Below are positions 35,906-37,686 of a DNA stretch of 64,000 nucleotides, one piece after another. Each line of letters opens with the position of its first letter. The first letter of the stretch is position 1. Both the position numbers and the translations under genes were made by a program. The DNA comes from an uncultured Alphaproteobacteria bacterium (GTDB lineage: Bacteria; Pseudomonadota; Alphaproteobacteria; Rhodobacterales; Rhodobacteraceae): positions 62,001 to 126,000 of the forward strand of contig CACHDI010000003.1 of NCBI GenBank assembly GCA_902578545.1. The letters run 5' to 3'. The notes beneath the pieces are model-generated. The model was given only the letters and a program-made list of their open reading frames with translations, was not told the DNA's origin and did no database searches.

Positions 35906-37007
35906 TGTTACAAATTTCTGATATAAGTTTTTGACGTAAAACGTCAATTGGTGCACTAGATCCATCAATTTTAAAATGCCAATAAGCCCATCCATTACAA
36001 GATGGTAAACCTTCTAATTTTGCACCAACTTGATGTATTGAACCTTTAGTATCATGAGAAATTAAAGTACCATCAGCTCTTATTTTTGCTTTATGTCTGC
36101 CGTTAAACGATTGTAGATCTTCGCCAGGATTTAAAATACCTCTTTCTATCAAAGAACCGAATGGAATTCTTGGTAAACTTCTTTTACTTTTAGTAACTTC
36201 CAAACATGAATTATCATGTTCAATGGTTTTACTTATTCTTTTACTAGCTACTTCGATATATGATTTGTCTTTTTCTATTCCAATGAAGTATCTGCCCAAC
36301 TTTTTTGCAACAGCACCAGTTGTACCAGTACCAAAAAAAGGATCTAAAATTATATCATTTTTATTGGAAGTACCAATCAAAATTCTGTGTAATAAAGCTT
36401 CAGGTTTTTGAGTAGGATGAGCTTTCTTTCCTTTTTTATTTTTAATTCTTTCTTTCCCACCACAAATAGGCATAAGCCAATCAGATCGCATTTGTAGACC
36501 TTCATTTAATTCTTTAAGAGCATCATAATTAAAAACGTATTTTGATGAATCAGATCGTGAGGCCCAAATTAGAGTTTCGTGGGCATTAGTTAGTCTTTTT
36601 CCGTGAAAATTTGGCATAGGATTTGATTTTCTCCAAATTACATCGTTTAAAATCCAAAACCCTAAATTCTGAAGAATTGATCCTAATCTGTAGATATTAT
36701 GATAAGTTCCAATTACCCATAATGCACCGTTTGGTTTAAGTAATCTTTTAGCCTCTATAAGCCATTTTTCACAAAAATTGTCATAGTCTTTAAAATTAAT
36801 GAATTTATCCCAATCCTCTTTAACAGCTTGAACCATTGAATTGTCTGGTCTATGCAAATTTCCATTGAGTTGAAGATTGTAGGGAGGATCAGCAAATATA
36901 AGATCAATCGAGTTGCTAGGTAATTCTTTCATATTCTCAATTGTATCACCCTCTAAGATTGAATTGAGAGGAAGTGATGTTTTATTTTTTTTTATGATTA
37001 AACTCAT
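35895..37007 (-). CDS. ccrM: CcrM-type adenine methyltransferase (GANTC)
   Basis: 370 residues. Beta-class N6-adenine methyltransferase order: IFADPPYNLQLNG (DPPY at 40-43), the target region, then DPFFGTGTTGAVAKKLGRYFIGIE (SAM site). The C-terminal domain (IPFGSLIERGILNPGEDL, RADGTLIS, GSIHQVGAKLEGLPSCNGWAYWHF) is found in CcrM and HinfI-type enzymes and reads DNA by strand opening. CcrM methylates GANTC in hemimethylated DNA late in the cell cycle and tunes promoters of cell-cycle genes. No restriction partner is present, so it is a solitary methyltransferase. Two GANTC sites lie directly upstream at 37041-37055. It may be transcribed from its own promoter or with rnhB. Confidence 0.96.
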   Translation of the reverse strand: MSLIIKKNKTSLPLNSILEGDTIENMKELPSNSIDLIFADPPYNLQLNGNLHRPDNSMVQAVKEDWDKFINFKDYDNFCEKWLIEAKRLLKPNGALWVIGTYHNIYRLGSILQNLGFWILNDVIWRKSNPMPNFHGKRLTNAHETLIWASRSDSSKYVFNYDALKELNEGLQMRSDWLMPICGGKERIKNKKGKKAHPTQKPEALLHRILIGTSNKNDIILDPFFGTGTTGAVAKKLGRYFIGIEKDKSYIEVASKRISKTIEHDNSCLEVTKSKRSLPRIPFGSLIERGILNPGEDLQSFNGRHKAKIRADGTLISHDTKGSIHQVGAKLEGLPSCNGWAYWHFKIDGSSAPIDVLRQKLISEICNINH

Positions 37008-37040
37008 TATGATCTCATTAAATAATTATTTGAACAAAAT

Positions 37041-37055
37041 GATTCAAAATGATTC
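37041..37055. promoter_or_regulatory. Paired GANTC methylation sites upstream of ccrM
   Basis: GATTC occurs at 37041-37045 and again at 37051-37055, exactly 10 bp apart (one helical turn), 34-48 bases before the ccrM start. In Caulobacter the ccrM leader also has GANTC sites, through which methylation state affects its expression. The same feedback here is inference. Confidence 0.7.
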
Positions 37056-37089
37056 GTCTGTCAAATAGTTTTTGAAATCAATAAGTTAT

Positions 37090-37686
37090 TTAATTTTCTT
37101 CATACAATATATTGTGTATTGGTTTAAATGTTTGTCTATGTATGGGAGTGACCCCAAGAGTTTTAAGTGCATCTAAATGTAGTTTAACACCATATCCTGC
37201 ATTATTTGTGAAACCATAACCAGGATATTTTTTATCTAATATTTTCATATGAGTATCTCTAATTACCTTGGCCACAATCGAAGCTGCGGATATCTCTGAG
37301 ATAAACTTGTCCCCTTCAATTATTGGATAAGCTTCTATTGTAAGTTTTGGTGGAATCCTATTTCCATCAATAAGTAACAAATCAGGAGTTAAAGTTAGGG
37401 AATTTATTGCCCTCTTCATGGAAAGAAATGTGGCCTGTAAAATATTAAATTTCTCTATTTCTTTAACAGAGGAAAAACCTACTCCTATAATTGAATTATT
37501 TTTTAATTTATCGAAAATTTCATTTCTATCTTTTTTATTAAGAATTTTTGAATCTTTCAATTCTTTAGCATTTGGGTAATTTTTTAAAATTACAGCTGCA
37601 GATACTACTGGACCGGCCCAAGATCCCCTGCCTGCTTCATCAACTCCTGAAATTATTTTTTTTTTTATAATAATATTAACTTTCAA
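37090..37686 (-). CDS. rnhB: Ribonuclease HII
   Basis: 198 residues starting at TTG. GVDEAGRGSWAGPVVSAAVIL (catalytic Asp16, Glu17) and LLIDGNRIPP (third acidic residue) are diagnostic, followed by SAASIVAKVIRDTHM (fourth acidic residue in RD). It cuts the RNA of RNA-DNA hybrids and single ribonucleotides in DNA. It lies 82 bp upstream of ccrM on the same strand, as in Caulobacter and relatives, and 40 bp downstream of tRNA-Arg. Confidence 0.96.
   Translation of the reverse strand: MKVNIIIKKKIISGVDEAGRGSWAGPVVSAAVILKNYPNAKELKDSKILNKKDRNEIFDKLKNNSIIGVGFSSVKEIEKFNILQATFLSMKRAINSLTLTPDLLLIDGNRIPPKLTIEAYPIIEGDKFISEISAASIVAKVIRDTHMKILDKKYPGYGFTNNAGYGVKLHLDALKTLGVTPIHRQTFKPIHNILYEEN

Follow-up and report, generated by a model that had tools for sequence, protein, structure and literature searches.

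The window, the whole 64,000-nucleotide stretch of DNA analysed here, carries a gene for a CcrM-type adenine DNA methyltransferase, with rnhB (ribonuclease HII) as its upstream neighbour on the same strand (Table 1). The ccrM product matches Pfam N6_N4_Mtase (1.3e-65) and a C-terminal RAMA domain (8.6e-17), both above the gathering score, and residues 16–360 of its 370 match the solved CcrM 6pbd_A (Modification methylase CcrMI; E 1.1e-146), which is presumably the C. crescentus enzyme. The NCBIfam CcrM equivalog NF050803 is matched over 348 of 350 positions (E 1.4e-178) with 593 bits, which falls below the curated 830-bit cut-off, and the gene is therefore called CcrM-type and not assigned to NF050803. 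Between the ccrM ATG at 37007 and rnhB lies a gap of 82 bp (37008–37089).

Read on the ccrM strand, this gap contains TTGACA-GAC-GAATC-ATTTT-GAATC-ATTTT, a sigma70-type promoter with a consensus -35 element and a 17-bp spacer. The earlier note had placed two GANTC sites 10 bp apart just upstream of ccrM, and two GATTC words are indeed found there, their starts 10 bp apart and the pair spanning 34–48 bp upstream of the ATG. The outer site and the -10 element share one base, the C that ends the former and opens the latter, and the inner site lies one turn upstream. Of the promoter or leader position that had been proposed, the first is correct, as the pair lies inside the promoter and upstream of the predicted start, and not in the transcribed leader. 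A generic promoter scan misses CATTTT because it demands four of six matches per hexamer and CATTTT has three. The TTCAAA/CATAAT pair that the scan reports at 37034–37006 was rejected, its -10 overlapping the start codon. The consensus of the full CtrA box is TTAA-N7-TTAA; seven exact matches occur in the window, none of them in 37008–37089. Further upstream, many leaders of the family have additional elements before TTGAC (37065–37090 in the window and its counterparts in relatives): a word resembling TAAC, an A-rich tract and, near -50, a third GANTC.

Table 1. Features of the ccrM promoter region (positions in the window; promoter positions relative to the predicted start).
Feature	Position	Strand	Basis or remark
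ccrM, CcrM-type adenine DNA methyltransferase, 370 aa	35895..37007	-	Pfam, structure match, NCBIfam
Predicted transcription start (+1)	about 37029	-	22 nt before ATG; predicted solely from the -10 position
-10 element CATTTT (A at -11, T at -7)	37036..37041	-	conserved A and T positions
Outer GANTC (GAATC on ccrM strand)	37041..37045	-	-16 to -12; exactly 14 nt after TTGAC
Inner GANTC (GAATC on ccrM strand)	37051..37055	-	-26 to -22; within the 17-bp spacer
-35 element TTGACA	37059..37064	-	sequence; TTGAC anchors 27 of 28 family leaders
GATTTC, probably a decayed third site	37074..37079	-	many family members have GATTC ~10 nt before TTGAC
rnhB (ribonuclease HII)	37090..37686	-	upstream neighbour, same strand as ccrM

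The earlier note had also held such close pairing to be unlikely by chance, a claim that fails for the spacing and holds for the place. A sample of 446 kb from the 1957-kb genome contains 655 GANTC words and eight pairs of neighbours that begin within 15 bp of each other. At exactly 10 bp, one pair is seen and about one is expected (655 squared / 446,000). As the 10-bp pair is no commoner than density predicts, it is weak evidence by itself, and the case is carried by its place and its conservation. The ccrM pair is the sole intergenic one of the eight, as judged with a crude ORF mask, and the chance of such a close pair in an 82-bp gap at that density is estimated at roughly 0.3%. Intergenic enrichment of GANTC was sought in the same sample with the same mask and was absent (1.30 vs. 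1.48 per kb). A pattern joining the outer site to both promoter elements, TTGAC-N14-GANTC-A-N3-T, has a single match in the whole genome, which is at ccrM, and two in the reversed-pattern control. Across the window, GANTC is under-represented (112 sites vs. 182 expected from shuffles).

The genus is represented by 12 genomes, small AT-rich assemblies of 1.0–2.5 Mb, some incomplete, with loci of 29–40% GC. Eight of these, the genome of the window included, have a ccrM hit. The earlier note had tied its proposal to conservation in sister genomes and to a promoter position; the sites lie in the promoter, both are kept in all eight of these genus members, and they are widespread in the family. The outer GANTC always stands 14 nt after TTGAC in the eight leaders, with the inner site offset from TTGAC by 4 nt in three genomes, 2 nt in four and 1 nt in one. 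GANTC starts are consequently 10, 12 or 13 bp apart in the genus, and 11 bp apart in most of the family rows listed. The 10-bp spacing was rejected as a signal in itself, as spacing varies across relatives while the outer position hardly moves.

The same layout is found in the family. Among 28 leaders taken from the best-scoring family ccrM hits, regardless of pattern, the outer site is at 14 nt in 25 and at 15 nt in one; one leader has the inner site only and one (L017) has neither. Both sites are thus present in 26 of 28, or 26 of 30 when the lower-scoring genes of G019 and G028 (L086 and L087) are counted, these two ccrM genes of lower identity having no GANTC in their promoters. L017 comes from a near-complete genome (G017) with both CcrM and GcrA and has no GANTC in 190 bp and no TTGAC in 200 bp; it is a natural counter-example to the layout. 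The remaining 27 leaders, unselected for pattern, could be anchored on TTGAC for an analysis of information content, from which L017 was dropped for want of this word. The most informative positions are TTGAC, the outer word, the A at -11 and the T at -7, the last being found in all 27 (2.0 bits); further downstream the information is near zero. Within the outer word, the middle base is loose, at 0.63 bits vs. 1.54–1.62 for the other four. The inner site slides by 1–5 nt.

A wider search used the strict pattern TTGAC-N3-GANTC-N5to7-GANTC, which occurs in 191 of 248 family genomes (about 201 matches; once in 181 genomes and twice in 10). The reversed control gave about 24 matches in 21 genomes. 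Exactly N6 is found in 144 of the 150 rows listed. Of these 150, 96 can be placed relative to ccrM, the other 54 lying in genomes with no recorded ccrM position, and 92 of the 96 sit 47–123 bp upstream of the ccrM match, with four elsewhere. When the -10 was included in the pattern, 66 of 80 family genomes matched, giving 81 rows of which 61, in 61 genomes, had the inner site. The 20 rows that lack it are at about control level (about 22 reversed), one of them, in G111, being at ccrM. The layout is therefore nearly unique to ccrM, and a regulon sharing it exactly was rejected, since none of these 80 genomes has the full layout, inner site included, more than once. Nor was it seen at gcrA in eight gcrA leaders inspected by eye over 220 bp. 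The ccrM gene itself was matched at E 1e-100 in 234 of the 248 genomes; of the 14 without a match (e.g. G025, G064, and G094), eight are among the 214 near-complete genomes, and some may have lost the gene.

The strict pattern is absent from 57 of the 248 family genomes, in ten of which ccrM was not matched at E 1e-100. The genome of the window is itself among the 57 because its spacing (N4, N5) differs, and the same is true of L092. Leaders were fetched for 18 of the 57: three retain the pair but differ in spacing or -35, six have the outer site only, seven the inner site only, and two neither. In all 13 that have lost one GANTC, the -35 and CANNNT persist at 17 bp, from which it follows that promoter function alone does not need the GANTC sites. 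This bears on whether the words are kept for some other reason, as the operator of an unrelated regulator or as a promoter preference, with methylation irrelevant. In favour of such a reading stands the middle base of the outer GANTC, which all 38 class leaders with the layout (see below) and 137 of the 144 family rows listed have as A or C. CcrM has no need for A or C at this base. The reading accords poorly with the retained promoters of the 13 one-site leaders, and with an inner site that remains GANTC while its position and its middle base change, and is thought highly improbable. The moved inner site remaining GANTC and the loose middle base of the outer site argue instead for selection for CcrM sites within a working promoter. 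Given these two features, selection seems to keep CcrM sites, and not a rigid footprint or operator.

Conservation extends to Alphaproteobacteria outside the family. A class set of 152 genomes, mostly one per family, contained 107 with ccrM at E 1e-60, from which two members of the window's own family (G000 and G244), two partial matches (G046 and G292), and one at contig ends (G403) were dropped. The 102 leaders used (300 or 260 bp; about 96 families) thus all come from outside the family of the window. TTGAC-N14-GANTC occurs in 38 of them, from 35 families, compared with a mean of 0.09 and a maximum of 1 in 200 dinucleotide shuffles. Nearby distances between TTGAC and GANTC are almost empty, with one leader each at 11, 12 and 13 nt and four at 15 nt. 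All 38 have the A at -11 and the T at -7, and the middle base of their outer GANTC is A or C throughout. An inner GANTC is present in 31 of the 38 (mean 1.2 and maximum 7 in 2000 letter-shuffled spacers), at offsets of 3 nt (16 leaders), 5 nt (seven), 4 nt (six) and 2 nt (two). The remaining 64 of 102 leaders lack the exact N14 form; some have one site, some another spacing, and some, as judged by eye, a CtrA-like box (L029 and L146). No GANTC at all is present in 14 of the 102.

Because the layout is conserved in genus, family and class, methylation feedback on ccrM is likely, as far as sequence can indicate. The occurrence of the layout in many alphaproteobacterial families suggests that the enzyme controls its own production via its own marks. 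The earlier note had seen in the pair a methylation feedback kept in a streamlined genome. Feedback appears the likeliest reading, whereas the layout is not special to streamlined genomes. In its specific form, the proposal is that the GANTC pair belongs to the promoter of ccrM, that full methylation directly weakens this promoter, and that hemimethylation permits it to fire; this is judged probable on balance. CcrM would methylate both promoter sites, so that full methylation would modify an adenine of the outer site on each strand, at about -15 (coding) and -13 (template), as well as those of the inner site. A promoter methylated in this way would be weakened directly, with no dedicated reader protein. 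Passage of the replication fork would leave it hemimethylated and able to fire, and the newly made CcrM would then remethylate it and shut it off. Four parts of this scheme, namely that the sites are methylated, that promoter activity is affected, that the effect is negative, and that no reader protein takes part, are what we infer from the promoter. The ccrM gene is reported to lie preferentially near the origin in Rhodobacterales (PMC8116508). In that position, the promoter would become hemimethylated early, which fits a burst of expression gated by hemimethylation.

Precedents for such an effect without alphaproteobacterial regulators are provided by two promoters. Methylation is described as lowering the activity of the gcrA promoter of Agrobacterium tumefaciens, an effect seen in E. 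coli too (PMC11514494). That promoter resembles the one described here as a GANTC-rich cell-cycle promoter of an alphaproteobacterium, and differs in belonging to another gene and in having six sites in 250 bp, for which the source describes no fixed geometry (PMC11514494). The transposase promoter of IS10 has a Dam methylation site over its -10 and is inhibited directly in vitro, the hemimethylated form being intermediate (reported in PMC3701705). In IS10 and in the MamA-affected promoters of M. tuberculosis, as at ccrM, an adenine-methylation site overlaps the -10, and the effect is thought to be directly on polymerase (PMC3701705); these promoters involve other methyltransferases and do not drive the methyltransferase's own gene. 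Higher expression is said to go along with methylation at the -10 in M. tuberculosis (PMC3701705). This is the opposite sign, and the sign of a methylation effect can thus not be read from position.

The ccrM promoter of Caulobacter crescentus is the closest known case. It is described as driven by CtrA, with two GANTC sites in the promoter and transcription tied to hemimethylation (PMC2217572, PMC10073500). The earlier note had likened the present layout to it, and the likeness holds for the two GANTC sites in the promoter of CcrM's own gene. It does not extend to CtrA, as the gap contains no exact match to the full CtrA box, while Caulobacter ccrM is CtrA-driven. Compared by description, the present promoter differs in its consensus -35, 17-bp spacer and outer GANTC at the -10. 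The Caulobacter promoter is thus a case of the same principle with another anatomy.

Instead of acting on polymerase directly, the marks could be read by GcrA, which together with sigma70 would recognise the methylated or hemimethylated inner GANTC and turn ccrM on in S phase, methylation then acting positively or as a hemimethylation-timed licence. This reading is considered doubtful. A 61-genome set includes 37 genomes of the family, and GcrA is present in 36 of them and in 11 of 12 of the genus, including the genome of the window, where the hit lies at the edge of a contig (G000:C7:2-553) and scores 117 bits. In 118 of the 144 family rows listed, the inner site matches YGAKTCG, the word for GcrA activation quoted in PMC7987155, on either strand. 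In the window, the inner CGAATCA reads TGATTCG on the opposite strand and fits this word; the outer site, which is the most rigid one, does not. Moreover, the flanks required by YGAKTCG are missing in five of the eight genus members (L003 and L005–L008, by eye) though GANTC is kept. Caulobacter start sites that have a GANTC between the -35 and -10 are reported to switch on at 40–60 min (PMC4287350). Among promoters with such a spacer GANTC are the cell-cycle promoters ctrA P1 and podJ P2, which belong to the GcrA/CcrM regulon (PMC4287350). However, just 11 of the 96 spacer-GANTC start sites described there have more than one GANTC (PMC4287350), whereas the ccrM layout has two with the outer one fixed, and, unlike these promoters, it occurs also where no convincing GcrA is found.

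Three genomes without detectable GcrA (G057, G058, and G289) have no GANTC in the ccrM leader, as a GcrA-bound role predicts. Over the larger comparison, the layout is present in nine of 23 genomes without GcrA at E 1e-3 and in 29 of 79 with it (Fisher p = 1.0), G037 being counted as positive on a C-terminal piece that falls under the cut-off. The nine are 90–100% complete, and searches with Pfam (E up to 10) and with a 13-sequence profile returned weak matches only. The best of these, both in G343, reach E 0.03 (Pfam) and 0.0125 (profile), with none over the Pfam cut-off, and the stronger of the two proves to be a domain of WSPEED type within a long open frame, which by eye does not resemble GcrA. 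GcrA could be divergent in the apparently GcrA-less genomes or encoded in missing contigs. As the layout is as common without a convincing GcrA as with it, a direct methylation effect is favoured over GcrA activation, and the case for GcrA as an obligatory reader appears weakened.

CcrM might also repress its own gene as a protein, by occupying the two spacer sites and excluding RNA polymerase, the methyl groups being irrelevant. Two sites one turn apart cover the spacer, and a layout nearly unique to ccrM would suit such a role. On the other hand, CcrM would be titrated by the many GANTC words of the genome (655 in the 446-kb sample), and no DNA-binding domain of the protein besides N6_N4_Mtase and RAMA exceeds the Pfam cut-off. 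Repression by bound CcrM is thought quite improbable, and the preferred reading remains a direct effect of the methyl marks.

Two GANTC sites in the ccrM promoter and expression from hemimethylated DNA are already known for Caulobacter, via CtrA, and the timing of CcrM has so far been explained from this CtrA-driven case. For a fixed GANTC at the ccrM -10, no description was found in the open-licence literature searched. One study counted GANTC upstream of cell-cycle genes, and is reported to have drawn no conclusion on control (PMC2877005). A broader interpretation, offered tentatively and as somewhat short of probable, is that much of the Alphaproteobacteria shares a GcrA-independent, possibly ancestral self-timing switch. 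In such a switch, near-private to ccrM, the -10 would be fused to a CcrM site at a fixed distance and the methyl mark would set promoter strength, confining CcrM synthesis to the period of hemimethylation that follows the fork; it would predate or bypass CtrA and GcrA. The layout provides a small, precise promoter for direct tests of methylation feedback and of the need for GcrA.

Relatives of CcrM were also met in genomes with other labels. Four that are 52–54% identical (L076–L079) come from MAGs labelled Anaerolineae, Deltaproteobacteria, Anaerolineaceae, and Desulfobacterales, and lack GANTC in the 190 bp inspected. A MAG labelled Candidatus Pelagibacterales (L044), a label that may be wrong, carries ccrM behind the same promoter, TTGAC-N3-GAATC-N6-GAATC-ATATT.
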